Below are positions 19,398 to 35,031 of a stretch of 39,895 nt of DNA, piece by piece. How positions within the stretch are numbered: the first letter of the stretch is position 1; every line of letters begins with the position of its first letter. Both the position numbers and the translations under genes were made by a program. The stretch is taken from IMG/VR virus record IMGVR_UViG_3300011432_000030, positions 1-39,895 of that record; one strand, given 5' to 3'. The DNA is from a virus. A model generated the notes under the pieces. The model saw only the letters and a list, made by a program, of their open reading frames with translations. It made no database searches and was not told the origin of the DNA.

Positions 19398-20017
19398 AAC
19401 GTGATTACGTCCATCTTCACCGACCCATCGTCGTTGCAGCCCAACTCCAATTCGTATGTTCCGTTCGGACTTCTCAATCTGATCGTGGCCCCGTTCGTAT
19501 TGTTTGCGAACTTGACATACCGCGCATCGGACTGGGCAAAGGTTAGGAATGTCTCGGTAAGGGCTGGGGCTTCGGTTGCGTTCTCATCCACCACGGCTTT
19601 CAGGGTGAATTGGAGTTGCAGAACCGTGTCCAACTCGCCACCATCATCCAGCTTGACCTCGAAATACGCTGTTCGTTCCGAAGCCGTCCCGATAAACGAA
19701 GTAATCCCTGCCGTGTTTAAAGCTATCTCCCCTTCAAACTGTTGATTGGTGGAATCCCACGTCCAAGTGGTTTGCAGGGCTAATGGGGTCGGGCCACCGG
19801 CTGTTCCGGTCGGGGTCTGCCCAACAGACACACGAAGGGTTAAGGAACCGACATCAACCTTGGCGTATGGGTTTTGCAACTGACCAGTCGGGTCTAAAAT
19901 GGAGATTTCAAACGGCTGAGTGTCGCCTTGGAAAAGCGCAGGAATTGATACGGCGGTCCCCTCAAAGTCCACCAACGATTTGCTCTGCCGATTAATGGCA
20001 AGCTTGAGTAAGCCCAT
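19394..20017 (-). CDS. Baseplate/tail-tip type structural protein (BppU-like)
   Basis: The 207-residue protein has an N-terminal Ig-like part (IPALFQGDTQPFEISILDPTGQ...YAKVDVGSLTLRVSVGQTPTG...LQTTWTWDSTNQQFEGEIAL) similar in style to upper-baseplate/BppU-type domains, then a fibre-attachment-like end (TFLTFAQSDARYVKFANN). It precedes the two fibre genes, which fits an adaptor that holds the fibres. A GTTGACG box sits 17 bases upstream of its ATG in a 26-base gap. No enzyme motif is present. Confidence 0.6.
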   Translation of the reverse strand: MGLLKLAINRQSKSLVDFEGTAVSIPALFQGDTQPFEISILDPTGQLQNPYAKVDVGSLTLRVSVGQTPTGTAGGPTPLALQTTWTWDSTNQQFEGEIALNTAGITSFIGTASERTAYFEVKLDDGGELDTVLQLQFTLKAVVDENATEAPALTETFLTFAQSDARYVKFANNTNGATIRLRSPNGTYELELGCNDDGSVKMDVITL

Positions 20018-20034
20018 TCCTCAATGGGCCACCC

Positions 20035-20040
20035 GTCAAC
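20035..20040 (-). promoter_or_regulatory. GTTGAC start-associated element (fibre-adaptor gene)
   Basis: GTTGAC, followed by GGGTGGCCCATTGAGGA, lies 17 bases before ATG 20017. CCCG and CGGG flank TTGA, so a small hairpin is possible. The 26-base gap has the same length and similar sequence as the gap before the tail-tube gene, so the motif is not chance at this site. Function unknown. Confidence 0.55.
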
Positions 20041-20043
20041 GGG

Positions 20044-21246
20044 CTAACCTAAAACAAGCCCCGTCCTGGCTGTGTATTGGGCTGGGGTTTCTCCAAGGAT
20101 ACAAAACCGGATACCACCGCAAGCTATCCCGCCTCGGATCTGAGCAAAGTCCTCCTCGCCATAATACCCATCGGCCCCAGTCTTATAAAAGCCAACGTCC
20201 TTTATCTGACCGGCTGTTAATGTGCCTTGTTCGACAACCGATGCCCCGTGAATAACATCATGCTCGATATGTGGGTAGAAATTGACCGCACCGCCAGAGT
20301 TGAAAAGCATCCCTTCAGCAATGAAATAGGACGTTGTGCGCGGTGTTCGGAACCGGGTTTTGACAGCGCGGATAGGCTGGTTCAGTGTAAACAAAGCATC
20401 TGAAATTGCAAACGTTCCACCCTTGTAATCCTCAGACAAATATACCCACCAGGAAGCCAGAACATCAAAAAAATTCTCCGGGTGTGCCGGGGCACCAAAT
20501 GGCGGAATAAAATCCACGAACTCATTCCGCCGCGGCAAAGCTACTGGGCTGCGGTCATAATCAACCGGGTCTTTTGAACCAATGTCTAGTAGGTTGTTGT
20601 ACTCATTGAACCGCTCGGGAAAGACCCCGACTTCGAATGTGGGATATGGCCGTTGTATAATCCGCTCTCTTAACCATGAAAACTCTGTAAAGAAGTCATA
20701 TTCGCCATTGGTGCTTAGGAACCAGTTCCTAGACTGGTCAGCATGAATCAATGCGGGGTCGTGTTCAGTCCAGTAAGCTTCAATCCAATCGAAAAAGAAC
20801 TCTGGGACTTCTGTATCCCAATCTTGATTGAATGGTCCCGGGTTGGGGAATGCCGGAAAAGGATTTTCCCCAGATAGCACAGATGGGTCGCCATGAATCT
20901 CCAGTGGAAACCCTTGGATCATCGGCACATCTCCCGGGCCAGCATATGAGTGAATGCCCTCATAAGACACCGCCCCATGTGTCCACGTGCTTCTCAAATC
21001 CCTAAACCGCCTTCGAACCTTCAGCCTCCAATCCGCGGTGGGGGGCACGTCAGGATAACCGGGGGATCTGAACGATGGATTGTTTCCAAGCACAACCCCA
21101 GACCCAAGCCCCGGCCATTGCTTGGTCTGCAATAACATCTGTATCTCAATCTCTGGTGGGGGTGAACTCAATCCCCGCGCAAAGTGCGGCGATTGAGTAA
21201 AGGCGTACTTTGGCGACTGATTAAAGGCGTTGCGCCCCGTGCTCAT
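20044..21246 (-). CDS. Unknown virion protein, aromatic-rich
   Basis: The 400-residue protein is rich in Phe, Trp, Tyr and Pro (NPFPAFPNPGPFNQDWDTEVPEF, FFDWIEAYWTEHDPALIHADQSRNWF, VFPERFNEYNNLLDIGS) and ends with a beta-strand region holding CGGIRFCILGETPAQYTARTG. It has no signal peptide or membrane segment. Its place after the tape measure and before the fibre adaptor suggests a tail-tip component. I recognise no family. ATGA couples it to the gene before (21243-21246). Confidence 0.55.
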   Translation of the reverse strand: MSTGRNAFNQSPKYAFTQSPHFARGLSSPPPEIEIQMLLQTKQWPGLGSGVVLGNNPSFRSPGYPDVPPTADWRLKVRRRFRDLRSTWTHGAVSYEGIHSYAGPGDVPMIQGFPLEIHGDPSVLSGENPFPAFPNPGPFNQDWDTEVPEFFFDWIEAYWTEHDPALIHADQSRNWFLSTNGEYDFFTEFSWLRERIIQRPYPTFEVGVFPERFNEYNNLLDIGSKDPVDYDRSPVALPRRNEFVDFIPPFGAPAHPENFFDVLASWWVYLSEDYKGGTFAISDALFTLNQPIRAVKTRFRTPRTTSYFIAEGMLFNSGGAVNFYPHIEHDVIHGASVVEQGTLTAGQIKDVGFYKTGADGYYGEEDFAQIRGGIACGGIRFCILGETPAQYTARTGLVLG

Positions 21247-21779
21247 ACTGCGCTGTAAGCGCGGCCGTCAATGTTCAGGTCCAGCAAGGTCAACACGTCC
21301 GGTTCTTCCTCGGTCCCAAGGTCCACATCGGTTGGTGCCGTTACCGCCCAGATTCGGCTTGTGGTGAGATACCTCGGAACCATTACTTGGGTTTCCGACT
21401 CGCCGCCAGACGTTGCCAGCCTGGTTTGTGCTGATGTGCTGTATGCGCTGAACGTTACCGCTACCCCGTCAATCGTTTGGCTTACAATGGAATGGCGCAG
21501 GTTCCACGGCTTAGCGATTCGCACCGGGTCTGTTCCCTCGGTCTCCCCATCCCATGTGTGACAGACAATATGTTCTGAATCCATCGAAACGAATTTATAC
21601 ATGGACACAATCGCCCCACTCCCGCCCCCGGGAATCAGTTCCAAAAATGTTCCGTCTGGGGTTTCTCTGATTCTATATCCGCGCCCCTGAAGGATCTGTT
21701 TGGACTTGGCCGCCCACAACAGGTTGCGGCACCATTGAACAAACAACCCTTGCCCAGTGGGTTCAATTGGGTACCTCAT
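21243..21779 (-). CDS. Unknown structural protein, tail-tip region
   Basis: The 178-residue protein is strand-rich with motifs QGLFVQWCRNLLWAAKSKQILQGRGYRIRETPDGTFLELIPGGG and MYKFVSMDSEHIVCHTWDG, suggesting one or two small beta domains. No catalytic motif is seen. It overlaps its neighbours by ATGA on both sides and lies between the tape measure and the adaptor genes. A tail-tip or distal-tail function is inferred by position. Confidence 0.55.
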   Translation of the reverse strand: MRYPIEPTGQGLFVQWCRNLLWAAKSKQILQGRGYRIRETPDGTFLELIPGGGSGAIVSMYKFVSMDSEHIVCHTWDGETEGTDPVRIAKPWNLRHSIVSQTIDGVAVTFSAYSTSAQTRLATSGGESETQVMVPRYLTTSRIWAVTAPTDVDLGTEEEPDVLTLLDLNIDGRAYSAV

Positions 21780-22582
21780 AAAACCTCGTCATAAAGAACC
21801 GTGGACCACAGTCCGAAATGCCATTCCTGGGTTATGTGCAGCCGACTAAATGCGGCCTGTTGAAGTGTCGGGGAATGTTTTAACCACCCAAACTGAATTG
21901 GCGGTTGGCCACGAGATGCCCTTAGCGTGGCTTCGGCACCAGAGATTTGATCCGTGTAAGGAGAACTGTCCAGGGTAATCAGGAACGAACCCGGCACAGC
22001 CTCGTCATCCACAAGCGTCTCTGTGCTTAGTATTCTTCGCACATTAGTATTTGCTTGCTTCGTGGCGTAAGCATTGGATACAGCCCTGGTCCGGCGCATC
22101 ACTGGCGCAAACTGGATAGCAGAACGGACCCCATTAGACATCAGAGCGTAAATCTGGCCGGCATCGGTAATGGTTGACCCAGAAAACGCCCACGATGGCG
22201 ACTCGGGCTTGCCATTGTGGATTATGTCCCGGAGTTGGTCTCGCTGAGCTATTGTTAGGTTGGCCACGGCTACATTATCCGAGTCCAGCAAGTCTTTCTC
22301 CACAATACCAGGCAACAATTCCCATGTATCAACCGGCACCTCTTCCTCGCCACCTCCACCCCCGGCCGAAATTGGAACCTCCATTTCGATTGTGGCTAAC
22401 GGTCCCGGACCCTCCTCAACCCGCCATGTGTATCTTCCAACTTTGGCTTGTCGTATCAGGTTAAGGATTGCTTCCTTTGGCCCTTTCCATGAACGGACGA
22501 TTGTATCCGGGTTCTGTGTATCACCCCGGTATCGTTTCGGTTGCTCAACCGCGCCTGGTGCTCCTAAGATAATGTGCGGCAT
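21776..22582 (-). CDS. Unknown tail-tip/minor tail protein
   Basis: The 268-residue protein begins MPHIILGAPGAVEQPKRYRGDTQNPDTIVRSWKGPKEAILNLIRQAK and includes a glycine-glutamate linker (SAGGGGGEEEVPVDTWELLPG). Its layout, with alternating helices and strands and a strand-rich end (FLITLDSSPYTDQISG...LHITQEWHF), is common in genes just after tape measures. It may be a distal-tail or minor tail protein. No family is recognised with confidence. One base separates it from the tape measure gene. Confidence 0.55.
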   Translation of the reverse strand: MPHIILGAPGAVEQPKRYRGDTQNPDTIVRSWKGPKEAILNLIRQAKVGRYTWRVEEGPGPLATIEMEVPISAGGGGGEEEVPVDTWELLPGIVEKDLLDSDNVAVANLTIAQRDQLRDIIHNGKPESPSWAFSGSTITDAGQIYALMSNGVRSAIQFAPVMRRTRAVSNAYATKQANTNVRRILSTETLVDDEAVPGSFLITLDSSPYTDQISGAEATLRASRGQPPIQFGWLKHSPTLQQAAFSRLHITQEWHFGLWSTVLYDEVL

Positions 22583-22583
22583 A

Positions 22584-23636
22584 TTATGTGGGCGGGAATC
22601 CTGTTTCCGACCCGGTTAATGACTTTTTAATATCTGCCAAGTGTTGGTTGGTAAGCGTCAAAAGCTTGTTGGTCTTTTCTGCTGCTGTGAGAATTGAAGC
22701 GCGGTTTGAGCCTAGGAAATTTCCCACGCTAACCAACCCATCGGATGAACCCATGGTCGGGGGGCTGGCTGGTGGCCCCTGCGTCATCCACGGGAGATTG
22801 TTACTAGCACCTGCGGGCCGCAGTGCTTTCATCTGTTCCGCTGTCGGCATTGGGGGTTGGTCCATCATCTTCCCCTTTTTCCTAGACCGATCGGTGAACA
22901 TCTTGTGAAGCTGGCTCATCCTGATCTTGCCCTCCCAGTATCCCTCATCTACACCAGCTAACCATTCCCCATCGAACAAAGAGATCCGACTTCCGATGGC
23001 TTCGACCTCAAACGATTTTATCTTGTTCTTTAAAGCATCTATTTTGTCCCCCATTCGTTCCACGTTATCAATACTTTCGGGTGAGACTATTGAGCCTTGT
23101 GCCCTAACCTTTGCTATGTTCTCCTCAAGCTCTTTAAGCACCGGAATCAGCTTGGTTCCAGCCCTCCCCATCGCTGTTGTCAGGTCGGCAGATACCTGGC
23201 TGGTAATGTTGGTGGTTTGCAGTGCTTTCCCTATCGCCGCCGCAACCTGGGCCGGGTTTTGTGATCTGATGTCCTCCCACGATGCCCCCAATCTAAGCAG
23301 GGCTTCCGCTGCGTCCCCGCCCTCCTCAGCGGCCGATTCCATTTGTCTTGCCAGGAAATCCAACCCCACCGCAAACTTTGCCATGGTTGACCCGCTCTGG
23401 TCCGCTGCGAATGACAACTCTTGAACCTCGGTAGTTGTCATTCCGAGTCTTGTGGCAGTATCCTTAATCTCGCTCGCAAACCGAATCAATGAACGGGTTG
23501 CACTGGCCACGGCCCCAGCGGTGAATGCGCTGGCGAGTGCGGTTTTGAGACTACCCACAGCCCCCATGACTCGGTTCATGCCGGCTTGAAAACCAGCTCC
23601 ATCCAGCCCTATTTGAGCTTCAAGCTTGAGCGCCAT
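22584..23636 (-). CDS. Tape measure protein (short)
   Basis: The 350-residue protein starts MALKLEAQIGLDGAGFQAGMNRVMGAVGSLKTALASAFTAGAVASATRSLIRFASEIKDTATRLGMTTTEVQELSFAADQSGST, a classic tape-measure N-terminus with an amphipathic helix and a central hydrophobic stretch. Long helices follow, and the C-terminal third is Pro/Met-rich (DQPPMPTAEQMKALRPAG). Tape-measure length sets tail length at roughly 1.5 A per residue, so a tail of about 50 nm is expected. It overlaps the chaperone-like gene. Confidence 0.8.
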   Translation of the reverse strand: MALKLEAQIGLDGAGFQAGMNRVMGAVGSLKTALASAFTAGAVASATRSLIRFASEIKDTATRLGMTTTEVQELSFAADQSGSTMAKFAVGLDFLARQMESAAEEGGDAAEALLRLGASWEDIRSQNPAQVAAAIGKALQTTNITSQVSADLTTAMGRAGTKLIPVLKELEENIAKVRAQGSIVSPESIDNVERMGDKIDALKNKIKSFEVEAIGSRISLFDGEWLAGVDEGYWEGKIRMSQLHKMFTDRSRKKGKMMDQPPMPTAEQMKALRPAGASNNLPWMTQGPPASPPTMGSSDGLVSVGNFLGSNRASILTAAEKTNKLLTLTNQHLADIKKSLTGSETGFPPT

Positions 23637-24231
23637 TTATCACCTCAACTTCCTGATCGGTCATCAACCGCACAGACCCAACCGATTCGGCGTGCCTGTA
23701 GAAATCCGATAAACATTGCGCCAATGGATTATTCAAAGCCTGTTCTTGAGTGTAACCAACCTGACCAATTAAAGAATCGTACAGAGCTTGTGCCCAATGT
23801 GCCCCACTGGGTTTGCCTTCCTCCTCTACCCAATATTGGGGTTGCTCTGTTGCTTCATTCAGATATTGCATGAACAACGCAACCTTGGATTTGAAGTCGA
23901 ACAGCCCCGCTTGCTTCCCCCACTTCCTGGCCTCTCTAGGCCATACAAATCTCGGCTTTGGCCGATGCCATGGCCATACCCAGGAAAGCAGAACGGACCA
24001 CCACGGATAATATTTGCGTTCGATAAACTCCAAGAAATCTTTGTAGGACATGGAACAAACAGAAACGGCAAATATCAAATCTTCCAAAGTTGCAGTCGCT
24101 TTTTCGTCATCCACAAACGAACACTCAAACCGTCTCAAGATGAAATAATGGCCGAGCGAGAACGGTTTGAGCTTTAAGCCCAGTATTCTATACGGCTCTG
24201 GGATGGCCGCTTTAAAGTAAGCGGCACCCAT
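23620..24231 (-). CDS. Putative tail assembly chaperone
   Basis: The 203-residue protein lies between the tail tube and tape measure, the usual site of tail assembly chaperones, which keep the tape measure soluble. MGAAYFKAAIPEPYRILGLKLKPFSLGHYFILRRFECSFVDD is a common N-terminal pattern of such proteins, and the rest is helical with several Trp. No frameshift extension is visible at its end, although it overlaps the tape measure start by 17 bases. It starts 3 bases after the tube gene stop. Confidence 0.6.
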   Translation of the reverse strand: MGAAYFKAAIPEPYRILGLKLKPFSLGHYFILRRFECSFVDDEKATATLEDLIFAVSVCSMSYKDFLEFIERKYYPWWSVLLSWVWPWHRPKPRFVWPREARKWGKQAGLFDFKSKVALFMQYLNEATEQPQYWVEEEGKPSGAHWAQALYDSLIGQVGYTQEQALNNPLAQCLSDFYRHAESVGSVRLMTDQEVEVINGAQA

Positions 24232-24234
24232 GGG

Positions 24235-24666
24235 TTATGAGACGATTCCAGCGTGCTTGACTAATGTAACGTTCAACCGAGCAGCGTTGGTGTTGCCCTT
24301 GACGCAACGGGCTTCCATGATGCGCCATTTTGCACCGGATGTATCAATTAATTCCGGCATACTGGTACAGGCTGTTATCGGGAAGAAGGCACCTTTGATG
24401 AAGTTAGTTCCGAGTGCGCAGTTGTTGATGGCGTTGGCGATGTTGGTTGCATCAATGATGATGATTTCCAGAACCGCCCGCTGCCCGCGGTTGTAATGCG
24501 CCTCCGCGGCCAAGTCGCCGTCTGCGTCCCGCACCTCCTCAACGTCCCCCTCTTCGCTCAGCTCCGCGCTTTGAAGCAGGCCCTTGCCGGATAAGTTGGT
24601 AGCGGTAAACCCGCCGGTTTCCGTGGTGAATCCGAAATTAATTGGAGTGCCGCGTATGGTCGCCAT
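24235..24666 (-). CDS. Major tail (tube) protein
   Basis: I chose ATG 24666 (MATIRGTPINFGFTTETGGFTA...), because GTTGACG lies 17 bases upstream as in related late genes; TTG 24681 is a weaker alternative. The 143-residue protein is strand-rich with GDVEEVRDADGDLAAEAHYNRGQRAVLEIII, a pattern seen in small tail tube proteins. It is directly followed by the chaperone-like and tape-measure genes, which fits gpV-type tube proteins. Tube subunits stack as rings around the tape measure. Confidence 0.65.
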   Translation of the reverse strand: MATIRGTPINFGFTTETGGFTATNLSGKGLLQSAELSEEGDVEEVRDADGDLAAEAHYNRGQRAVLEIIIIDATNIANAINNCALGTNFIKGAFFPITACTSMPELIDTSGAKWRIMEARCVKGNTNAARLNVTLVKHAGIVS

Positions 24667-24683
24667 ATCGAGAATGGCCAACC

Positions 24684-24689
24684 GTCAAC
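24684..24689 (-). promoter_or_regulatory. GTTGAC start-associated element (tail-tube gene)
   Basis: GTTGAC followed by GGTTGGCCATTCTCGAT lies 17 bases before ATG 24666, in a 26-base gap between genes. Fourteen of the first 17 gap positions match the gap before the gene at 20017. No Shine-Dalgarno sequence is visible, so this element may help to start translation or transcription. Confidence 0.55.
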
Positions 24690-24692
24690 GCT

Positions 24693-25145
24693 TTAGAAAC
24701 TGGTGCAGCAACAGAGCAACCGAAACCGCCAGGTCTCAACCCAACAATCTTCACCCTGGCCAGATTCATGGGCAGTATCGTCCCCGATCCCGAAGCAATG
24801 GAATTCATCGACAAGACCGTCTGACAGTTCGCCGGGTAAATCCGAATCGAACAGGGCGTTCGCCACAGAAGTCGAATAAGATTCTGAGTTTGTATGCGGG
24901 TCTGTCTCATCCTCGCCCGAATCCACCGGGGCAACCGTTTTCAGCATCACCTCAACATCCACCCAGAAGTTGCCTGTCCCAGGTATGTCCTCGGTTGCGC
25001 TGGATGCGTCACAGATAGCAATAGGCGCGGCTTTTTCCCCAGAAGCTTTCCCGTCTGCTATGGTCAGTCCGGATATGCCTTGAGCGGTCAGGTACGCAAC
25101 CAGGGCTTGCCGGGTCTTGGATAGGACTATTGCGGCAGTGGCCAT
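24693..25145 (-). CDS. Tail terminator-like protein
   Basis: ATG 25145 overlaps the upstream stop (TAATG), giving 150 residues; the longer frame to 25325 is a shadow. MATAAIVLSKTRQALVAYLTAQGISGLTI... then a strand region (FWVDVEVMLKTVAP, SYSTSVANALFDSDLPGEL, FHCFGIGDDT, CWVETWRFRL) resembles gpU/Neck-type tail terminators, which cap the tube and join it to the head. Position before the tail tube agrees. Assignment is by pattern and order. Confidence 0.6.
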   Translation of the reverse strand: MATAAIVLSKTRQALVAYLTAQGISGLTIADGKASGEKAAPIAICDASSATEDIPGTGNFWVDVEVMLKTVAPVDSGEDETDPHTNSESYSTSVANALFDSDLPGELSDGLVDEFHCFGIGDDTAHESGQGEDCWVETWRFRLLCCCTSF

Positions 25146-25804
25146 TATCGCACCTTCACCCCAGCTTGACGGGCTGTGCCTCGAAGCTTGTTCAGAATAT
25201 AATCCTTCATGGATCTGGTTTCGTGATTGAACGCTGCTTGCAGCCCAGCCATGCCGAATCTCATAAACCCGCCCCTGTCCGTCTTGGATGCGGCTGTATT
25301 GGCTATGATGGTTTTGCCACGCCACCCACCCCGGCTGGGTATGGCATAGCCGTTGGGTTTGCCGCGCTGTTTGGCGGTTCGGTCTATCTTGGGTTGGTTG
25401 CGCTTCTCAGCGAACGGTGCTAGGGTCTTAATAGCTGGCAACCAACCCGACTTGATAAAGGCGATTGAACTCATCCTTGTAGCCAACTCCTTTCGCATCA
25501 AATCTCTGACTTCCTCTTTGGCTGGTTGCTTTCCTCCGGCCCGATAAATCCTTGCCCGAATGATGCTTTCCAGCAAAGGCTTTGCAGCCAGAGTCTTGCC
25601 TTTAATGCCCCGAACCTTAATCAGCCGGCCGAGTTGAGATGCAATTTTGTCCTTGTCTGCCTTCTTGGTCTCAACCGTGGCCCGTCTGGCAATGAAGAAT
25701 CCTTTGGTGTCCGTGATCTGTTTCGGGTCACGACTGGAAAGCTGAACATACCGGCGCATGGTCCGGTCAAATTCTCGGGTATCGAGTTTGAACGTGGGCT
25801 TCAT
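25145..25804 (-). CDS. Minor tail/tail completion-like protein (gp10-like)
   Basis: The 219-residue, strongly basic protein (FKLDTREFDRTMRRYVQLSSRDPKQITDTKGFFIARRATVETKKADKDKIA...) lies between head-tail joining and terminator genes, where HK97 gp10-like or lambda gpZ-like proteins belong. Such proteins finish the tail end that docks to the head. The start overlaps the stop of the 49-codon gene upstream (GTATGA) and includes the palindrome TACCGAAATCGGTA (25804-25817). Confidence 0.6.
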   Translation of the reverse strand: MKPTFKLDTREFDRTMRRYVQLSSRDPKQITDTKGFFIARRATVETKKADKDKIASQLGRLIKVRGIKGKTLAAKPLLESIIRARIYRAGGKQPAKEEVRDLMRKELATRMSSIAFIKSGWLPAIKTLAPFAEKRNQPKIDRTAKQRGKPNGYAIPSRGGWRGKTIIANTAASKTDRGGFMRFGMAGLQAAFNHETRSMKDYILNKLRGTARQAGVKVR

Positions 25805-25950
25805 ACCGAAATCGGTATCACTGCCCGGGGGTCCCCAATAATTCGCTTTTCACCGTTGGGAAGCACCCAAACCTCGGCAACAAGGTACCCGTCCGGGTCG
25901 TAATATTCAATTTTGGCGACCACTCTTAATTCTCTCATTAGTTCGTTCAT
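25801..25950 (-). CDS. Small structural-operon protein, 49 residues
   Basis: This gene overlaps both neighbours by ATGA (25947-25950 and 25801-25804), so it is very probably translated. The product MNELMRELRVVAKIEYYDPDGYLVAEVWVLPNGEKRIIGDPRAVIPISV is strand-rich. It may be a small connector or tail-joining subunit. I know no family for it. Confidence 0.55.
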   Translation of the reverse strand: MNELMRELRVVAKIEYYDPDGYLVAEVWVLPNGEKRIIGDPRAVIPISV

Positions 25951-26273
25951 GCGCCTTTAGAAGCGTTGACACACCCGAGTCGGATGAAGCCCTGGTCTGG
26001 GGCCGTTGTTACGCTATCTATACGGTAAGTCACACTGACATAGCTTATGGTCTGCCCCCTGGTTGGTAACGTGTCCCCAAATTGACCAGACCTGCAGTGC
26101 AATACTAAATCTTCGTCCACGCTGAATCCACCGGGTTCAAGTGAAGCCCGTTTTCTGACCGCATTGGGGATACAGGCGTAAGAACCTCCCGCCCAAGTAA
26201 ACGCGGGGTCGAACAATCCTGCTTCTTCAAGTTCTTGAAATACTTCCGCGCAAAGTTCGCCTATCTCTGGCAT
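25947..26273 (-). CDS. Head-tail joining/stopper-like protein (gpFII-like)
   Basis: The 108-residue protein MPEIGELCAEVFQELEEAGLFDPAFTWAGGSYACIPNAVRKRASLEPGGFSVDEDLVLHCRSGQFGDTLPTRGQTISYVSVTYRIDSVTTAPDQGFIRLGCVNA has the size and strand pattern of phage head-tail attachment proteins (lambda gpFII-type), where TLPTRGQTI and the YRIDSV strand are typical. It is first in the leftward tail operon and diverges from the head genes. The start has GTTGACG 16 bases upstream and no clear ribosome binding site. Confidence 0.6.
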   Translation of the reverse strand: MPEIGELCAEVFQELEEAGLFDPAFTWAGGSYACIPNAVRKRASLEPGGFSVDEDLVLHCRSGQFGDTLPTRGQTISYVSVTYRIDSVTTAPDQGFIRLGCVNASKGA

Positions 26274-26289
26274 TCACCCATTACCACCC

Positions 26290-26304
26290 GTCAACCGCGT
26301 TGAC
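26290..26304. promoter_or_regulatory. Palindrome GTCAACCGCGTTGAC between divergent head and tail operons
   Basis: GTCAAC and GTTGAC form a perfect inverted repeat around CGC in the 51-base gap between the leftward tail gene (start 26273) and the rightward gpW-like gene (start 26325). Each arm points to one gene: GTTGAC is 16 bases before ATG 26273 on the minus strand and 20 bases before GTG 26325 on the plus strand. The gap has no other promoter-like match. Confidence 0.6.
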
Positions 26305-26324
26305 TAGCCAGCCTTGTTTAGACC

Positions 26325-26918
26325 GTGGCCGCCACGATTCCAAACATCGAACCGGTTCAGATTACCGCTGGCGATACCGCCGAGTGGACCCGACGCCTTA
26401 CAGATTATCCCGCTCCGGATTGGGTTTTAACCTATGCGTTCATCTCTGTCCCGATTGCTGGTGACCCAATCCTAATCGAAGCAGATGACGACGGGGACGA
26501 TCACCTGGTCACCATCGAACCAGCCACAACCGAGCTATGGGTTGCTGGGGAGTATAACGGCCAAGGGTATGTAACCAAAACCGCCACGGGCGAACGGCGA
26601 CATATCTGGTCGGGTAAACTCACCATCAACCCCAACTTTGTTAGTGCTGGCCAGATTGATACCCGAACCAACTCCCGCCGAATCCTGGACTTGATTGAAC
26701 GCTCCTTGGAACGGTTGGCCGCGAAACAAACCACCCGCGTCACTATCGAGGGTGTGAGCTTCGAGTTTCAAGACATTGAAAAGTTACTGAAGCTCAAAGC
26801 CCATTATCTGAATGAAGTATTGAATGAGGAAGCCGCGGCTGCTGGGATGAATCGCAAAGTCATCTTGGCCCGGTTCCGCGCCCCGTCACAGTGGGCCCCT
26901 GACATCACATTCCCGTGA
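26325..26918 (+). CDS. gpW-like head-tail joining protein with N-terminal Ig-like domain
   Basis: The start is GTG 26325. The first ~100 residues (ITAGDTAEWTRRLTDYPAPDWVLTYAFIS...) form a beta-sandwich-like domain, resembling BppU/Ig-type domains; the last ~75 (LIERSLERLAAKQTTRVTIEGVSFEFQDIEKLLKLKAHYLNEVLNEEAAAAG) have the helix-strand-helix order of lambda gpW (TxEGxxxxFQDxxxLxxxxxxL), which seals the portal. A fusion of the two is not usual. It is followed by the portal gene through a GTGA overlap. Confidence 0.6.
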   Translation: MAATIPNIEPVQITAGDTAEWTRRLTDYPAPDWVLTYAFISVPIAGDPILIEADDDGDDHLVTIEPATTELWVAGEYNGQGYVTKTATGERRHIWSGKLTINPNFVSAGQIDTRTNSRRILDLIERSLERLAAKQTTRVTIEGVSFEFQDIEKLLKLKAHYLNEVLNEEAAAAGMNRKVILARFRAPSQWAPDITFP

Positions 26919-28573
26919 ATCTATTTCGCAAGTTCGCTCGTTGGATAGTTAAATCCGGTATGACCACGCGGTCTTATGCTGGCGCGGTTAACTCCAGGCT
27001 GACCAGTGATTGGCTAACCTCCTACACCAGCGCAGATGCGGAGATTAAGACTGGGAGAAAGTCACTTATTGCCAGGTCGAGAGACTTGGACCGGAACAAC
27101 GAATACGCTGCTCGATACTTCAAGCTTCTGCTCAATAACGTTCTCGGGGCTTGTGGAATCAAGTTGCAGATGAAGATTCAAAACCCGGACGGTTCTTATG
27201 ATACCGGGGCCAATGATGCTATTGAGATGGCATGGGAGGATCAGTGCAAAGCCAAGAACTTCACCGTTTCTGGCCAACACACCAAGAGACAAATTGAACG
27301 ACTGGTCCTGCATGCAGCCGCCCGCGATTCTGGGGCTTTGGTTCGTATCGTGCGCGGGTTCGATAACGCCCGGAAATACGCTGTTCAACTCATCGAGATT
27401 GACCAGTTAGACCACGACTTTGACGGGATATTCGAAGGGAACGAAGTCCGCATGGGGATTGAGTTTGACCAATGGAAGCGGCCAATAGCTTACCACATCT
27501 TCAACGACCACCCAGGAGACACACTGCACAGGGCCAAACGGCGTCGAGCACGTATCCCAGCCGATGAATTAATTCACGTCTACATGCCCACACGGATAGG
27601 CCAGAACGTTGGCGTGCCGTGGATTGCTCCCTCGATTCTTCCTTTGAAGATGTTGGCCGGCTATGAGGAAGCCGAGCTGGTAGCAGCCAGAGAAGCCGCC
27701 TGCAAAGGTGCCGCTATTGAGAACACCACCCCAGACCAGTTCCAGGGCGAAGTGGACGGGCGTGGGAATGAACTGCAAGACATGGAACCCGGTATGGTTC
27801 TTAACCTCGGCCCTGGCCAAGTCTACAAAGCCATCGACCCCACTCACCCCAACCAGGCTTTTGGTGATTTCGTTAAGTCCAAGCTGCGCGGGTCTGCCTC
27901 GGGTATGGGCGTCTCCTATGTCAGCCTGGCCAATGACCTGGAAGGCGTGAATTACTCCTCAATCCGCTCGGGTGAACTCGAACAGCGTGAAGAATGGAAA
28001 GCTATTCAGGAATGGTTTATTGAAACCTTCGAGGGCCGGTTGTTCGAGGATTGGCTTCAATGGGAACTTACCATGGGACTTATCAAGTCCACATCTGGCG
28101 TCGCTCTCCCCGCTTCTAAGTTCGATAAGTTCAATAAACCCGAGTGGACCCCACGCCGTTGGCCCTGGGTCGATCCTCAGGCCGACATGGAAGCTCATAA
28201 AACGGCTATTGCCATGCGTATCGAATCCAGAAACCAGGTCATCAAGGAACTGGGCGGGGACATGGAAGCCATTGATAAAGATTTCGAAAATGACCCGGTT
28301 ACTAAGAATCTGGACACAGATTCTGTCTATGCACCCGATTCCAAGCCTGAACCACAACCAGTGGCCGCTGAAAGAGTTATTCAGCCAATCAGCAACCATA
28401 TTTCGCCTGCTCCGGTAACTATAAACGTGCCCGAAAGCAAAGTTCGGGTTGAGTTCCCGAAGGATACACCAAAGCCAGTTAAACGAATTGAATTCAATCG
28501 TAACAGTAGAGGCGAAATAACTGGCGCACTTGTGGAGGAGACCAATGGCAATAACCGCAGCGATTTGCACTAG
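26915..28573 (+). CDS. Portal protein, lambda family
   Basis: The 552-residue protein begins at GTG 26915 (NLFRKFARWIVKSGMTTRSYAGAVNSRLTSDWLTSYTSADAEI...). RSRDLDRNNEYAARYFKLLLNNVLGACGIKL, RQIERLVLHAAARDSGALVRIVRG, YAVQLIEIDQLDHDF, EVRMGIEFDQWKRPIAYHIF, ADELIHVYMPTRIGQNVGVPWIAPSILPLKML and GEVDGRGNELQDMEPGMVLNLGPGQ are characteristic of the phage_portal_2 (lambda gpB) family. The portal ring is the packaging vertex. The C-terminus is Pro/Glu-rich. It overlaps the next gene by 29 bases. Confidence 0.92.
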   Translation: MNLFRKFARWIVKSGMTTRSYAGAVNSRLTSDWLTSYTSADAEIKTGRKSLIARSRDLDRNNEYAARYFKLLLNNVLGACGIKLQMKIQNPDGSYDTGANDAIEMAWEDQCKAKNFTVSGQHTKRQIERLVLHAAARDSGALVRIVRGFDNARKYAVQLIEIDQLDHDFDGIFEGNEVRMGIEFDQWKRPIAYHIFNDHPGDTLHRAKRRRARIPADELIHVYMPTRIGQNVGVPWIAPSILPLKMLAGYEEAELVAAREAACKGAAIENTTPDQFQGEVDGRGNELQDMEPGMVLNLGPGQVYKAIDPTHPNQAFGDFVKSKLRGSASGMGVSYVSLANDLEGVNYSSIRSGELEQREEWKAIQEWFIETFEGRLFEDWLQWELTMGLIKSTSGVALPASKFDKFNKPEWTPRRWPWVDPQADMEAHKTAIAMRIESRNQVIKELGGDMEAIDKDFENDPVTKNLDTDSVYAPDSKPEPQPVAAERVIQPISNHISPAPVTINVPESKVRVEFPKDTPKPVKRIEFNRNSRGEITGALVEETNGNNRSDLH

Positions 28574-28964
28574 TTTTAAACAAGAGATTCTTGGCGGCGA
28601 ACATGAAGCCGCCGACACTTACAAAATAGCCCTGTACACCAGCGCGGCCAGCCTGGACGCCAGCACCTCGGCCTACAGCGCGACCAATGAAGTTTCGGGC
28701 ACGGGCTACAGCGCCGGTGGAGCCACGCTTTCAGGCTATACGCGGAGCGCCAGCGGAACCACCGCTTGGATTGATTTTACCTCCGACCCGTCTTGGGCCA
28801 GCTCAACCATAACAGCTCGAGGGGCGCTGATCTATAACTCCACCAATAGCAACAAGGCTGTGGCTGTGTTGGATTTTGGTTCGGACAAAGTCAGCACCAA
28901 CGGTACTTTTACCGTGATCTTGCCCACAGCCGACGCAAGCAACGCGCTTATCCGATTAGGTTAA
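28545..28964 (+). CDS. Small structural protein, head module
   Basis: GGAGGAG lies just before ATG 28545, so the in-frame TTG at 28530 is unlikely. The 139 residues (MAITAAICTSFKQEILGGEHEAADTYKIALYTSAASLDASTSAYSATNEV...) are Ala/Ser/Thr-rich with strands and G-Y turns, and end SNALIRLG. Such proteins are frequent between portal and capsid genes in this phage type and probably decorate the particle. It ends in TAATG overlapping the next start. Confidence 0.65.
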   Translation: MAITAAICTSFKQEILGGEHEAADTYKIALYTSAASLDASTSAYSATNEVSGTGYSAGGATLSGYTRSASGTTAWIDFTSDPSWASSTITARGALIYNSTNSNKAVAVLDFGSDKVSTNGTFTVILPTADASNALIRLG

Positions 28965-29215
28965 TGGCAGCATGGAACCTGAAACACGGACACTGGTGGA
29001 TGGTTCAATGGTCGGTTGATTGGTGGGTATCAATCGGAATACACATTGACCTGAGAGCGAGGGTCACGCCTTCAGGCGAGCGTTACGGTCCATACGTGGA
29101 CCTGCACTTGTTATTCCTGGTTCTCAGTTTTGGAGTGAACCCGGTTAGGAGTGGGGAATTGGACTTAAAAGCTTCCTGCGGTCGTGGAGGGTTAGGCGAT
29201 GGCCACTTTTACTAA
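28964..29215 (+). CDS. Small unknown protein in the head module
   Basis: The 83-residue protein MAAWNLKHGHWWMVQWSVDWWVSIGIHIDLRARVTPSGERYGPYVDLHLLFLVLSFG is very rich in Trp and His, with strand-like alternating residues, and carries PSGERYGPYVDLHL, a pattern recurring in small phage proteins of this region. It overlaps the next gene by 17 bases. Function unknown. Confidence 0.6.
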   Translation: MAAWNLKHGHWWMVQWSVDWWVSIGIHIDLRARVTPSGERYGPYVDLHLLFLVLSFGVNPVRSGELDLKASCGRGGLGDGHFY

Positions 29216-30438
29216 ACAATTCAGCTTCAATTCCACGATTGAAGATTGGGCCTTTAACGCCAACGGCGGCTCAAGCATCGCGGGGACCAGAGACACAACG
29301 GAAGATTCCGGGAATGACACCAACGCCGGGACGGGTGTCATGCAAACCAGGCGAACCGGGAAGAACAACTCTAATGGCACACCATACTGGGAATGGTCGG
29401 GCACATGGGAAACCCTTGGGCTACCAGCCGGGGCGGTCATCAGCGCAGTTGACCTGGATTATGACTGGAGATGTTCTGAATACACTACGGGAGCATCCAG
29501 CACAACCGGGCCAGGCCGAGTTAAGAGATTCCGGTGGAACACTTCGCAACACATTTTCAAGTTCATCGGCATTTACCGGAACAACGGCTTTCGCCACCGC
29601 TGGAGGGACAAACCAGACCGGGTTAAGCGATGCTTCAACCACATCAATTAGGCTAAGGATAGGAGCTAAGCCGAACACGGGCAGCAGCACCTCCGCGGCG
29701 GTCACACTTAGGCAGGATTGGGTGGTTGTCACTGTAACATACACGCTTAGCGTTAACGTTTCTGCCACCGGAGTAAGCGGTACCGGGGCGATTGGCACCG
29801 CGACCGTTACCGGAGACGCGAACACGTCACCCACAGGCGTTTCAGCCACTGCCGCACTTGGCGAAGTAACCGTTACGACAGGAACCCCGGTGGACGTGAA
29901 TGCGGAGGGGGTTTCTGCTACAGCGACGGTCGGGTCCGTTACCGTCACCGCAGATGCGAACACTAACGCAACCGGATTAAGCGCTACCGCAAGCCTCGGA
30001 ACCGTTACCGTTACGGGCGCAGCTAACACATCGCCTAGCGGTCTTTCATCCACGGCGGCGGTCGGGACGGTCACGGTTGAAGCCGATGGCGAGCAGCCGG
30101 AAGCACCAGCCGTTCAAGGCGGTGGCAGTCGTCGGCCTAAATCCAAGGCGCGTGCGGAACTGCCCAAAATCCGTTACATATCCGAAACCTTATTCAAGGT
30201 TCAAGGTGTATCAGGCAAAGCTAGTGTGGGGTTTGTTGCTCACACAAATCGCTGGTGCAACCCCATCCCAGCCGGCACTTCCCGCGCAGGACGGCCGAGT
30301 GTCTACGTGGAGCGCCAATCAGAGGTTTCCGTATTCACGAATGAAACCCGCTCGCTATCTGGGGAGTGTCACGCCGACGCAATCCAGAACCCAACCGAAG
30401 AACTTATAGACCTCCTGTTGACGGCTGCCGACATGTAA
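29199..30438 (+). CDS. Head-module structural protein, split by an apparent +1 frameshift
   Basis: GGAGGG precedes ATG 29199. Frame one encodes ATFTKQFSFNSTIEDWAFNANG...WEWSGTWETLGLPAGAVISAVDLDYDWRCSEYTTGASSTTGP and stops at 29651, but the second frame resumes the protein as AELRDSGGTLRNTFSSSSAFTGTTAFA from about 29515 and runs to 30438. Removing one G near 29512-29516 restores a single 412-residue protein. It contains four to five ~27-residue repeats of the type GVSATATVGSVTVTADANT (29755-30090), then a lysine/arginine hinge and a C-terminal domain. A sequencing error, a pseudogene or a frameshift event are possible. Confidence 0.6.
30417..30422 (+). promoter_or_regulatory. GTTGAC start-associated element (capsid gene)
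   Basis: GTTGACGG sits in the last codons of the gene ending at 30438, with 16 bases (GGCTGCCGACATGTAA) between it and ATG 30439. There is no Shine-Dalgarno sequence before this start, although a major capsid gene should be translated strongly. Confidence 0.5.
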
Positions 30439-32337
30439 ATGGCAGCGAGAGTTATCAAGACGGGGTTGCTTCGGCGATCTTTTGACCTGGACCGCAGCGC
30501 GATTGACGAGGAGAGGCGCACGGTCAATCTCTCGTTTTCTTCCGAGTCTCCCGTCGAACGATTCTTCGGAATGGAGATCCTCGACCACGCCCCGGAATCC
30601 GTCGATCTCTCGCGCCTCCAGAATGGCGGCCCCTTACTTATGGATCATAACCCCGGAGACCAAATCGGGGTCATCGAGAAGGTTGGACTGGACGGACGTA
30701 GAGGTAAAGCTGTTGTGCGCTTTGGGCGATCTGCCCGAGCCGAAGAAATTTTCCAAGACGTAAAAGATGGCATCCGCCGCTTGGTAAGCGTCGGCTATCG
30801 GGTAGATAAGATGGTCACCGATAAGGTTGAGAAGGGTGTGGAAACCCTTCGAGCCACTGCCTGGACCCCGATGGAAATCTCCCTCGTTAGCGTTCCAGCC
30901 GATCCTTCGGTCGGTATTGGGCGAGCCAGCGAAAATCAATTTGAAACAATCATAGAAAGCACACGTATGGACACTCCTGTAGTCATTCCCCCTGGCCAGC
31001 CCCAGCCGGCCGCACCTCAAGCCCTCATGCCCGGAGTCGTTTACGAATCCGAGCGCAATGAAGGTATGATCCGCGAACGCAATCGTATCGCTGAAATCAA
31101 CGCCATCGGTGACAACCTCCGCGGTAAAGTTCCCAATATTCTGGAACTGGTTGGAGAGGCCGTTCGGAAAGGCTGGACCGTCGAACAGTTCAGGACTGAG
31201 GTCATCAAGCACATTCCCAATGTGCAGCCGCTTCCCCCAACCCGAGAATCCGGGTTCGGCATTGATCGAGAAACGCTGAAAAGGTACAGCCTGACCAGGG
31301 CCATTAATGAAATGTGCACTGGCAAACTGACTGGTCTTGAGGCAGAGCTTCACCAGGAAATCACCAAGCGAACCGGCAAATCCGCTGGCGGGTTCTGGTG
31401 CCCTCCTGAAGCCCTGGTCGGCCAACGTAATTTCGTGGCTGCCACCGGCACCCTCGGCGGTATGGTGGTTGAAACCTCGAACCTTGGCGAACAGTTCATT
31501 GAACTGCTTCGGAACCGTTCACAGGTTATGCGCCTCGGCGCTCGGTCGCTCATGCTCGACAATCCCGTGACCATCCCGCAGCAGAATGCGGCTGGCGCGG
31601 TGAATTGGGCGGGTGAAACCGTTGCCTCCACTCTCGGAACTGGTAACTTCACTCAAATCACGCTTACCCCGAAAGGTGTAACCGCGTTCCAACAGTACTC
31701 GAAACAACTGTTGGCCACGTCGAATCCTTCGATTGACCAGATCATCCGTGATGACATTGTGGCGAGCATCGCTACTGCGATTGATTTAGCGGCACTCCAC
31801 GGCACCGGAACTAACCAGCCAACCGGCATTGCTGGCATCTCCGGCATCGGCACGGTCCTGCTCTCCACGAACGGTTTGGCAATCAACAATGCCACGGCCT
31901 ACCCGGCTTTGGTTTCGTTGGAATCTGCTCTCGGCACTTCAAATGCCGACCAGGGTTCATTGGCTTACCTGCTCCGGGCTTCCATTCGTGGCGTGCTTCG
32001 CACCACGACTCAATTCGCTTCTACCGATACGCCGGTGTACACCAGTGCACCGGGGAATGTCGATGGAATCATTAATGGGTACCGTGCTGCAATCTCGAAC
32101 CAGGTTTCGAATGCTCTTACGACCGGAACAGCCACTACAATAACAACGCCCGTCTTTTTTGGGAATTGGAATGAACTTTTGATAGGCAACTTTAACGGCG
32201 GAGCAACAGACATCGTCGTGGATCCGTACACTTTAGCGGCCAATCGGGTTGTTAGGGTGCTGGCGTCGCAATGGGTGGACGTTCAAGTTCGCCACGCCGC
32301 GAGCTTCGCGCTGTTGGGTGGTATTTTAGGAGGCTAG
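30439..32337 (+). CDS. Fused prohead protease and HK97-fold major capsid protein
   Basis: The 632-residue protein joins two late proteins. Residues ~1-165 are a HK97-type prohead protease (family U35/S78): LLMDHNP gives the catalytic His at 70 and MEISLVSVPADPSVG the serine at 148. After a linker rich in Pro and Gln (VVIPPGQPQPAAPQALMPGV) a long charged helical delta-like region leads to the capsid domain from about 325 (SAGGFWCPPEALVGQ, VETSNLGEQFIELLRNRSQVMRLGARSL, VDPYTLAANRVVRVLASQWVDVQVRHAASFALL). Protease and capsid are usually separate genes, though fusions are known. Autoproteolysis is expected during maturation. Confidence 0.9.
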   Translation: MAARVIKTGLLRRSFDLDRSAIDEERRTVNLSFSSESPVERFFGMEILDHAPESVDLSRLQNGGPLLMDHNPGDQIGVIEKVGLDGRRGKAVVRFGRSARAEEIFQDVKDGIRRLVSVGYRVDKMVTDKVEKGVETLRATAWTPMEISLVSVPADPSVGIGRASENQFETIIESTRMDTPVVIPPGQPQPAAPQALMPGVVYESERNEGMIRERNRIAEINAIGDNLRGKVPNILELVGEAVRKGWTVEQFRTEVIKHIPNVQPLPPTRESGFGIDRETLKRYSLTRAINEMCTGKLTGLEAELHQEITKRTGKSAGGFWCPPEALVGQRNFVAATGTLGGMVVETSNLGEQFIELLRNRSQVMRLGARSLMLDNPVTIPQQNAAGAVNWAGETVASTLGTGNFTQITLTPKGVTAFQQYSKQLLATSNPSIDQIIRDDIVASIATAIDLAALHGTGTNQPTGIAGISGIGTVLLSTNGLAINNATAYPALVSLESALGTSNADQGSLAYLLRASIRGVLRTTTQFASTDTPVYTSAPGNVDGIINGYRAAISNQVSNALTTGTATTITTPVFFGNWNELLIGNFNGGATDIVVDPYTLAANRVVRVLASQWVDVQVRHAASFALLGGILGG

Positions 32338-32362
32338 TCCTCCTGGTTGTGGGTTAGGGTTC

Positions 32363-32391
32363 AGGGCCGCTCAGAAATGGGCGGCCCTTTT
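32363..32391 (+). terminator. Intrinsic terminator after the capsid gene
   Basis: AGGGCCGC (32363-32370) pairs with GCGGCCCT (32381-32388) over 8 bp with a 10-base loop, followed by TTTT. It ends the rightward head operon 26 bases after the capsid stop. The end of the HNH gene overlaps this element on the other strand. Confidence 0.75.
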
Positions 32392-33021
32392 GCTATGCTC
32401 TCCGTTCACATGCCTTTTCATCCATTGGCAATTCATGCAAAGTATTTGGAATCTTCCCGATTCATCGGAGAGAATGTCTTTGTAATACTTCCGCCTGTCC
32501 CTGCGTAATGATTTACGGTGCATGTTTCCACCGCCGTTAATATGGTCGACTGACAGGACTGGTGGCCTTGATTCGCCACATGTTGCACACTTTCCGCCAA
32601 GCTTGGAATAAACCTTTCCTTTTAATTCCCTCATAGTCTTGTACCTAGACTTAGCCTGGATCTCCTTGAACCTTTCTTTATTGTTCGCAAGCCACTTATC
32701 TGCGACGGCTCGCCTTTTGGCCCTGTTGTTCTGATAAAACAACTTGCCCCGCGCTCTCATTTTGTCGGCATTGGCCAGGTAGTGCGCTCGCCGACGGGCC
32801 AAGATGGTTTCCTTGTTGTTCGCTTGATATTTTTTACCACGCGCCATGGCGCTACATCTTCTGGTATCATACATCTGGTTTATCTTGCGTGGGATAAATA
32901 CGGAAGAACAAACCGGACAAGCCCTGTATAAAATAGAGTCCCCCACCCCCGGTAGAACCGGACCCGGTAAAGGATCCGCGGAGATGGGGGAAATTTGGCT
33001 GACAGGTTCTACACTGTTCAT
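32371..33021 (-). CDS. HNH homing-type endonuclease, antisense insertion
   Basis: The 216-residue protein has an N-terminal zinc motif (ACPVCSSVF...), a basic lysine/arginine-rich helical middle (KKYQANNKETILARRRAHYLANADKMRARG) and an HNH domain: KCATCGESRPPVLSVDHINGGGNMHRK, then RFQILCMNCQWMKRHVNG with the CxxC, DH and N/H residues expected. It is leftward, between the capsid terminator and the small rightward gene, splitting a head operon in the opposite direction. It probably moved in as a free-standing homing endonuclease gene. Confidence 0.8.
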   Translation of the reverse strand: MNSVEPVSQISPISADPLPGPVLPGVGDSILYRACPVCSSVFIPRKINQMYDTRRCSAMARGKKYQANNKETILARRRAHYLANADKMRARGKLFYQNNRAKRRAVADKWLANNKERFKEIQAKSRYKTMRELKGKVYSKLGGKCATCGESRPPVLSVDHINGGGNMHRKSLRRDRRKYYKDILSDESGRFQILCMNCQWMKRHVNGEHSKRAAHF

Positions 33022-33046
33022 GCCCAGACCATACCAGCCACGCCCC

Positions 33047-33052
33047 GTTGAC
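33047..33052 (+). promoter_or_regulatory. GTTGAC start-associated element (gene at 33069)
   Basis: GTTGACG occurs 16 bases before the ATG at 33069, with the sequence GCAAGCCTATTCGTGT in between and no Shine-Dalgarno sequence. The same box stands before other late genes, which supports the choice of this start codon. Confidence 0.5.
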
Positions 33053-33068
33053 GCAAGCCTATTCGTGT

Positions 33069-33323
33069 ATGCGCGTGCGCCTCGTTAAGCCAATAGTTGT
33101 CCAGAATCACCCAGGAGTACAGCCCGGAGACGTATTTGATGTGGAACACAACGAAGGCATAAACCTGATTGGCTGGGGTTATGTCGTGGAGGTCACCTAT
33201 ACTGAGTCAAGGATGAACGAGATCCAATCCCGCGAACCCGCAATCGAGAATCGAGATTTTACACCGGCACAGGAGCAGGAAACGCAGCCTCGCAAATCTT
33301 CTCGGCGCACGCCCGCCAAGTAA
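33069..33323 (+). CDS. Small rightward protein, head-module end
   Basis: ATG 33069 is chosen over TTG 33048 because of the GTTGAC box spacing. The 84 residues MRVRLVKPIVVQNHPGVQPGDVFDVEHNEGINLIGWGYVVEVTY form a small beta-barrel-like fold, as in small head-tail connector or capsid accessory proteins, followed by a basic, Arg-rich tail (RKSSRRTPAK). Its last 65 bases overlap the end of the convergent glycosyltransferase gene. Confidence 0.6.
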   Translation: MRVRLVKPIVVQNHPGVQPGDVFDVEHNEGINLIGWGYVVEVTYTESRMNEIQSREPAIENRDFTPAQEQETQPRKSSRRTPAK

Positions 33324-34290: not shown

Positions 34291-34822
34291 CCCCGGTCGT
34301 TTCCTCCAGGAACTTCCAGCCCGAGCGGGTTCCGTTCAGTAATCCAAGTACTTCTATGGCTGGTCGCACATTCACGGGTTGGCCGCAGTGCGGTTGCTTT
34401 TCTTGGCCTTGTATGTGCGGGTTCACGTCATGGAAACACACGATTCCGCCCGGGCGAATGATCCGTTCCGCTCCGAGAAAGTCTTGCACGCAACACGTGT
34501 GGGCGTGGCACCCGTCGATGAAGATGAAATCGGCCGGGTCGGGGCTGGATGCGAAGTATGAAGCTGAACCCATAAGGACGATCCGACTCCGCGGAGGCTC
34601 TGGAACCCGTGTCCACGTTGGGAGATCGACGCCATCCATTTCAATGGCGCATTGGTGGGCATAGGTATTATCAAGGAAGTCATGAACGGCCATGAATGTC
34701 TTAAGGTCGCCCAGCCCGATTTCCAGATACCGGAACGGCCAAAGCTCGGTGCTTTCAAATGCCAACTTGAGATACTTGCAAAAGGCTTCCTCGTTTCCGA
34801 CCATGCAAAAGCCCCAGCTCAT
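34244..34822 (-). CDS. SAM-dependent methyltransferase (class I)
   Basis: ATG 34822 overlaps the preceding stop (GTATGA), so the start upstream at 34858 is rejected. The 192-residue protein carries FRYLEIGLGDLKTF (motif I), DFIFIDGCHAHTCCVQDF (motif IV-like acid pair) and RIIRPGGIVCFHDVNPH, typical of a Rossmann-fold methyltransferase (Methyltransf_24-like, used on sugars or small molecules). It lies in the glycan cassette with FkbM and glycosyltransferase genes and probably methylates a glycan or sugar. The C-terminus runs into the GT4-like gene. Confidence 0.8.
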   Translation of the reverse strand: MSWGFCMVGNEEAFCKYLKLAFESTELWPFRYLEIGLGDLKTFMAVHDFLDNTYAHQCAIEMDGVDLPTWTRVPEPPRSRIVLMGSASYFASSPDPADFIFIDGCHAHTCCVQDFLGAERIIRPGGIVCFHDVNPHIQGQEKQPHCGQPVNVRPAIEVLGLLNGTRSGWKFLEETTGDEQKGGRGCMFFQRE

Positions 34823-35031
34823 ACGCGTTGATTCACCCCTTGTGGAATCAGCCCCCATACATCTCCTTTATCCTCCAGTATATAATGGCCTACCCCGGTT
34901 TTAGTTTTGATGAACACCCGACCAACGCCATTATTTCTGAACTTAAATCGGCGGCGCCCTTCAGGGGCGTTTTCGAGTGGCTTTATCCCGGGCGGAATAG
35001 CCCAGACGATTTTACGACCAAGAACTTTCAT
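34819..35031 (-). CDS. Small unknown protein in glycan cassette
   Basis: ATG 35031 overlaps the FkbM stop (GAATGA), giving 70 residues. MKVLGRKIVWAIPPGIKPLENAPEGRRRFKFRNNGVGRVFIKTKTGVGHYILEDKGDVWGLIPQGVNQRV is strand-rich and basic, without known motif. The two couplings (to FkbM and to the next methyltransferase) make it a member of the cassette. Function unknown. Confidence 0.6.
   Translation of the reverse strand: MKVLGRKIVWAIPPGIKPLENAPEGRRRFKFRNNGVGRVFIKTKTGVGHYILEDKGDVWGLIPQGVNQRV

Follow-up and report, generated by a model that had tools for sequence, protein, structure and literature searches.

What does a six-base word do when it recurs at a nearly fixed distance before the late genes of a phage, on both strands? 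The question is raised by the word GTTGAC (hereafter the box) in IMG/VR virus record IMGVR_UViG_3300011432_000030, a tailed phage by gene content, whose 39,895 bases were analyzed whole and are referred to here as the window. An original prediction had placed six boxes before late-gene starts and proposed a translation or expression signal of the kind found in cluster K mycobacteriophages. We consider it fairly probable that the box belongs, as its upstream half, to a late promoter that is bipartite and specific to the phage. Such a promoter would give near-leaderless mRNAs and is likely read with a phage-encoded factor.

A box defined by its position

All six predicted boxes are present (Table 1). 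The word itself is not over-represented in the window (19 occurrences vs. 22 expected), and it is the position that constitutes the signal. Gene calling with a simple coding-potential model, supplemented with plausible missed genes, gave 64 starts, which are themselves predictions. We then applied a look-elsewhere test to every hexamer (4096), in any 5-nucleotide (nt) register between -40 and -10 of these starts. GTTGAC was the top word, with 6 of 64 starts, while the best word in 300 random sets of genome segments reached 3 in 259 sets, 4 in 40 and 5 in only one. The enrichment at fixed spacing that had been claimed for the box is therefore upheld, and it exceeds what the original prediction asserted. 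The absence of overall enrichment would nevertheless suit a chance word, common to a few starts and inflated by the choice of starts after the box had been seen, and for this possibility the related phages are informative.

Conservation in related phages

Searches with the terminase recovered G001 and G002, in which the large terminase (TerL) is 58% identical and the head genes are syntenic, and G003 to G006, with 57-59% terminase identity and head proteins about 25-35% identical. Proteins of G001 and the window are mostly 38-58% identical. A contig identical to the window at 100% (L002/L003/L088) represents the same phage and thus carries no information.

The unbiased word scan was run on each relative separately. 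GTTGAC is again the top hexamer in G001, where 6 out of 40 starts have it at -24 to -21 (p 5e-11, against an expectation of 0.06), and likewise in G002 at -24 to -21. In G003, G004 and G005 the top words include (A)TTGACT or the flanking ACTTAA, at -23 to -19, and ATTGACT(TAA) stands in place of GTTGAC in G003 to G006. Taken alone, G003 falls within the look-elsewhere range (4 starts, a count also reached by 27 of 300 random sets), and some of the G004 and G005 sites are related by recent descent. The original prediction had made its case depend on relatives carrying the box at homologous starts; five of the six window boxes do recur at such starts in G001 (Table 1). The upstream DNA of these five pairs is otherwise unalignable, and when the pairs are aligned on the box, 32 of 35 box positions are identical (91%) vs. 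54 of 170 in the upstream flank (32%, approximately chance). The negative control consisted of about 110 loci whose relationship is limited to the capsid family or to a more distant terminase; the TTGAC signal is missing there (0 or 1 per locus). A word that leads an unbiased scan in an independent genome, at homologous genes of such diverged proteins, and that is silent at the control loci makes coincidence extremely improbable; G001 to G005 already contradict it.

A second element in register with the box

To describe the sequence around the box, 20 sites from five genomes were aligned on TTGAC, with positions counted from its first T. A second element emerged downstream, with A at +13 in 14 of 20 sites (p 2e-5), T at +15 in 16 (p 3e-7) and T at +18 in 14 (p 2e-5). 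The same signal blurs when sites are aligned on the start codon, where it shows as T at -7 in 12 of 20. The motif can be written (G/A)TTGAC-N8-A(T/A)T-N2-T, i.e., TTGAC-N8-AWT-N2-T. At least two of the three second-element bases occur at 17 of the 20 sites compared to 53 of 305 TTGAC words elsewhere, a contrast that is optimistic because the positions were picked on those sites themselves. The element is bipartite, and its halves keep register with each other and not with the ATG. Nothing else in the sequence speaks as strongly for a promoter and against a ribosome signal. Short bipartite phage late promoters of the AR9 type likewise consist of an upstream word, a fixed spacer and a second element, in several copies ahead of late genes. 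A matrix of the bipartite motif was tried as a genome-wide predictor and rejected for its low specificity.

That the box instead acts within the mRNA leader, as a translation-initiation signal that replaces the Shine-Dalgarno sequence in the manner of start-associated sequences, seems quite unlikely to us. Its near-fixed spacing of 14-17 nt to ATG or GTG and the small number of Shine-Dalgarno-like sequences in these genomes would fit such a role. However, the second element tracks the box and not the ATG, dozens of internal genes do without a box that is confined to operon heads and the capsid gene, and in related phages the element lies up to about 45 nt before the start, directly after terminators. 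The defining features of the cluster K sequences are also all absent. A conserved RNA hairpin around the box was considered as well and rejected; one can be drawn by eye at the divergent sites and before the capsid gene of G001, with a weak counterpart at 20017, but not at the others, and the window has no Rfam match.

Different words before the same genes in more distant phages

In a more distant set of phages (TerL identity 44-52%), one word usually precedes both the head-tail joining gene and the capsid gene within a phage: CGTCAATTTCA in G007, AATCAATTT in G008, CTTTATTTCGC in G010, GATACAA in G009 and CGCTACCA in G013 and L135. The G007 word GTCAATTT occurs exactly four times in 24 kb, always on the coding strand, and each copy has a TAG-type element downstream at almost the same spacing (GTCAATTTCAACCGCCAAAGTAGAATG, GTCAATTTCAGTTGCCTTGTTAGGCATG, GTCAATTTCAACCGCTTTGGTAGGCACATG and GTCAATTTCCTGCGCCTTGGTAGC). 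For the copy with GTCAATTTCCTGCGCCTTGGTAGC, the annotated start lies about 20-25 nt further downstream. G008 and G010 have the same two-part layout, with second elements CATAAATAG, CATAGGTAG and AATAAATAG. Leaders in this set would measure 2 to about 25 nt, with the element up to about 45 nt before the start. These layouts indicate that with a longer leader the spacing to the ATG can vary, whereas that between the two halves cannot.

Among 79 distant loci related through the capsid, 18 (e.g., L013, L033, L037, L062, L072, and L078) show a different arrangement, with an inverted repeat 39-46 nt ahead of the starts of the head-tail joining and capsid genes. Its arms (5-12 bp) vary between phages and are common to both genes of one phage, while the core is constant and asymmetric, TTTGCCTTA (for example GCGGAAACG-CTTTGCCTTATC-CGTTTCCGC), with A enriched 29 nt downstream. 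By its sequence, this looks like a phage-specific regulator site before late promoters.

Operon heads, divergent genes and terminators

The annotated targets of the box are head genes and genes of the tail block, and in the window as in its relatives it precedes the leading gene of nearly all blocks of virion genes. Of 16 starts led by a box, 15 head an operon or come after a strand switch, against 58 of 118 other starts (p 8e-4). In the window, a 51-bp gap (26274-26324) parts two divergent operons and contains two boxes facing outward; it must hold the promoters of both. The same arrangement fills a 47-bp gap in G001, where other genes flank it owing to an inversion of the head block with respect to the terminase. 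This block (joining protein to TPR/glycosyltransferase genes; window 26274-37690 vs. G001 2381-10850) has one of its inversion breakpoints at the divergent box pair in both genomes.

Intrinsic terminators narrow the space further. One ends 38 nt before the head-tail joining ATG in G003, where the box is at -22, and another ends 32 nt before it in G013, so that between terminator and ATG there is room for the element alone. The order terminator, element, ATG is seen also at L135, L140 and L145. Since these terminators end just before the joining gene, transcription must restart within those few bases.

Sites resembling sigma-70 promoters show no excess in the region (7 against 8.8 expected), with none at the boxes, and no TATAAT follows the boxes. 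The box as the -35 element of its own gene was accordingly rejected, as it had been in the original prediction; the -10 position, 16-18 nt downstream in a sigma-70 promoter, would coincide with the start codon. By way of contrast, the site TTGACA-N17-TAATAG at 1302-1330, before gene 923-1294, resembles an ordinary leaderless promoter in sequence.

We also weighed whether the box might be an operator, bound by a phage repressor or activator and overlapping or flanking an unrecognized promoter whose core lies elsewhere, and judge this unlikely. Where boxes stand back to back, as they do in the divergent region of each genome (window 26290-26304, G001 10840-10849), they make GTCAA-N5-TTGAC palindromes. 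The L128-L132 word GTCAATTT reads as AAATTGAC on the opposite strand and may thus be free in its orientation, and the inverted repeats of some distant relatives precede the same genes. Most sites, on the other hand, are single, lie on the coding strand and keep a fixed distance both to the start and to a second downstream element; the 51-bp divergent gap leaves little room for two more promoters, and a sigma-70-like core is lacking at the sites.

A candidate regulator next to the terminase

Only two non-structural genes are common to the window and G001, namely 923-1294 (45% identity) and its neighbor 429-926. Both lie on the minus strand and lead across the circular join into the small terminase (TerS). 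G001 keeps that order (40952-41863, then the terminase at the record start), and the window record is therefore probably close to complete. The 923-1294 protein has an N-terminal FDYDxVDxRL motif, and diverged relatives of it are encoded upstream of TerS in G003, G004 and G006; no homologues were found beyond these genomes, G001 and the window. The type of word (GTTGACG or ATTGACT) tracks the type of this protein, a correlation that extends over a handful of genomes.

A Pfam search for sigma-like factors returned just a 70-aa LuxR-type protein in G001, not in the window, and this candidate was dropped. The protein, of LuxR/GerE helix-turn-helix (HTH) type, is encoded at G001 40690-40902 (L114:690-902), directly upstream of the 923-like gene. 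In the window, the DNA just upstream of gene 923-1294 (1370-1890, minus strand) is a non-coding-looking stretch of about 520 bp of degenerate GGCNN pentamers. GGCNNGGC occurs 85 times in the window vs. 32 expected, over half of the copies being in this stretch and there all on one strand. Origin, packaging or spacer DNA are possibilities for its role.

A model of late transcription

The preference for operon heads, the register of the second element, terminators directly upstream and leaders of 2 to about 25 nt together argue for transcription, and the expectation that the box is an expression signal tied to late-gene starts was borne out to this extent. In the late-promoter model that we favor, a phage factor, for which gene 923-1294 is the candidate, would read the box and redirect the host RNA polymerase. 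Transcription would begin about 0-6 nt before the start codon of the first gene of each virion block, and such a start would account for the almost fixed distance between box and ATG. The leading gene would thus have a near-leaderless mRNA and downstream genes would be read by coupling, while each lineage would have its own factor and its own word.

Several observations weigh against this model. The signal of the second element, recognized post hoc, is weak. With a leave-one-genome-out matrix, positions away from starts score too, so the motif alone is no site predictor. A near-fixed distance to the ATG is equally expected of a translation signal. The capsid box (30439), the single exception to the operon-head rule, sits inside an operon, and the G001 homologue of gene 33069 has no box. 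The HTH match of the candidate regulator is weak, and AlphaFold models of the 923-1294 protein and its G004 homologue are of low confidence (pLDDT 50 and 60) with no fold match.

More broadly, we suggest tentatively, as a possibility that we regard as somewhat doubtful, that near-leaderless late promoters are general in the phage family with the head/protease fusion protein. Their upstream word would be replaced in each lineage at the same head and tail genes, and would be read by a fast-evolving regulator family (FDYDxVDxRL N-terminus, HTH-like C-terminal part). The genes of this family would lie directly upstream of the terminase, and its members would form a new class of late transcription factor.

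Few late promoters are known from uncultured phages, and here a putative one could be read from sequence alone together with its counterparts in relatives, which opens the pairing of promoter word and regulator to direct test. If the late mRNAs are near-leaderless, this would account for the translation of virion genes that lack Shine-Dalgarno sequences and provide a rule for locating late operons and correct start codons in this phage group. The turnover of words at the same genes between lineages could also serve as a natural experiment in the co-evolution of promoter and factor.

Features of the window

Besides the features listed in Table 1, the minus-strand region 33259-37314, beside the head genes, encodes glycosyltransferase, methyltransferase and TPR/glycosyltransferase-9-like proteins (51-59% identity with G001), possibly with a role in virion or DNA decoration. 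A putative Imm5-like immunity protein is encoded at 8399-8911 on the minus strand (PF21805, E 5e-9), and G003 has one too. Two genome collections were scanned for the host; the only hits were relatives of the terminase, 29-38% identical and from unrelated bacteria.

TABLE 1. Boxes, genes and other features of the window, with counterparts in relatives.
Feature	Position	Strand	Remarks
Box GTTGAC and second element	20021-20040 (hexamer 20035-20040)	-	Ends 17 nt before start 20017 (gene 19394-20017); box also at G001 homologue 20069
Box GTTGAC and second element (CATTCTC)	24670-24689 (hexamer 24684-24689)	-	Ends 17 nt before start 24666; box at G001 homologue 15554
Box GTTGAC and second element	26276-26295 (hexamer 26290-26295)	-	Ends 16 nt before start 26273; left-going half of divergent pair; box at G001 homologue 10867
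Box GTTGAC and second element	26299-26318 (hexamer 26299-26304)	+	Ends 20 nt before start 26325; right-going half of divergent pair; box at G001 2439, ATTGACTTAA at G003 8127, ATTGACT at G004 5489
Box GTTGAC and second element	30417-30436 (hexamer 30417-30422)	+	Ends 16 nt before capsid start 30439, within end of preceding open reading frame; box at G001 5228, G003 10398, G004 7816
Box GTTGAC and second element (TATTCGT)	33047-33066 (hexamer 33047-33052)	+	Ends 16 nt before start 33069; downstream of terminator-like hairpin and opposite-strand gene; no box at G001 homologue
Possible seventh, weaker box ATTGACGG	21267-21271	-	20 nt before start 21246; not in the original prediction
Tail-region gene, 207 aa	19394-20017	-	Box-led; homologue G001 20069-20686, 53% identity
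Tape measure gene	22584-23636	-	
Tail-region gene, 143 aa	24235-24666	-	Box-led; upstream of tape measure gene
108-aa gene	25947-26273	-	Box-led; first in left-going tail block
Head-tail joining protein gene	26325-26918	+	Box-led; phrog_5774, E 3e-35
Portal gene	26915-28573	+	
Major head/protease fusion protein gene (major capsid)	30439-32337	+	Box-led; phrog_617, E 1e-128
Terminator-like hairpin after capsid gene	32363-32388	+	11-bp stem, 8 G-C pairs; weak alone, as shuffled sequence has similar hairpin numbers
Small gene, 84 aa	33069-33323	+	Box-led; phrog_2616, E 1e-7
Large terminase gene	37692-39593	-	
Small terminase gene	39526-39825	-	
Candidate late regulator gene	923-1294	-	Weak HTH_23/HTH_28 matches; upstream of small terminase across circular join
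Sigma-70-like promoter TTGACA-N17-TAATAG (contrast case)	1302-1330	-	7 nt before GTG of gene 923-1294

Comparison with known systems

Late promoters of phage T4 consist of a single short element, TATAAATA, near the transcription start and are read via the phage sigma-like factor gp55. The second elements CATAAATAG and AATAAATAG of G008 and G010 resemble it. At the box sites of the window, on the other hand, the element is GTTGAC-N8-AWT, TATAAATA is absent, and no gp55-like gene was recognized. Promoters of T7-type single-subunit RNA polymerases are repeated sequences of about 20 bp, with a phage-specific word and a TA-type element at the start, and they turn over between lineages. PF00940, the T7-type polymerase family, had no match in 12 records, in which positive controls were equally silent; the sole uncharacterized open reading frame of polymerase size (840 aa) lies in a tail-fiber position and has a variable C-terminal part.

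Cluster K start-associated sequences share with the box the repetition of a short sequence before start codons. They are 13 bp long (GGGATAGGAGCCC) with a Shine-Dalgarno core, and lie 3-7 bp before the starts of non-structural genes only (PMC3203893). The box (GTTGACG/ATTGACT) lacks AGGAG, ends 14-17 (up to 20) nt before the start and is found at structural genes. As none of the defining features of these sequences was found, we rejected this identity; the translational signal of cluster K type proposed originally is not supported, given also the preference for operon heads and the second element tied to the box.

For the middle and late promoters of Thermus phage P23-45, which are of the extended -10 type, no -35 contact is needed and a phage factor redirects the host polymerase (PMC7403470). 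Late promoters without -35 contact and a phage factor acting on host polymerase are likewise proposed here, with the difference that no TATAAT-like element was found. The late mRNAs of P23-45 are reportedly leaderless.

The late promoters of AR9 have the form AACA-(6N)-TA/G, the last base being the transcription start (PMC5312081). The likeness lies in the short upstream word, the fixed spacer, the second element at the start and the many copies before late genes. AR9 is a phiKZ-related giant phage with a jumbo genome that encodes two multisubunit RNA polymerases (PMC5312081), whereas the genome here is about 40 kb, has no recognized RNA polymerase gene and uses other words and spacing. By analogy of layout, the AR9 late promoter is the nearest working analogue documented. 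Phage-specific late promoters are a known kind, of which the element described here, given a transcriptional role that its sequence and position suggest, would be a variant.

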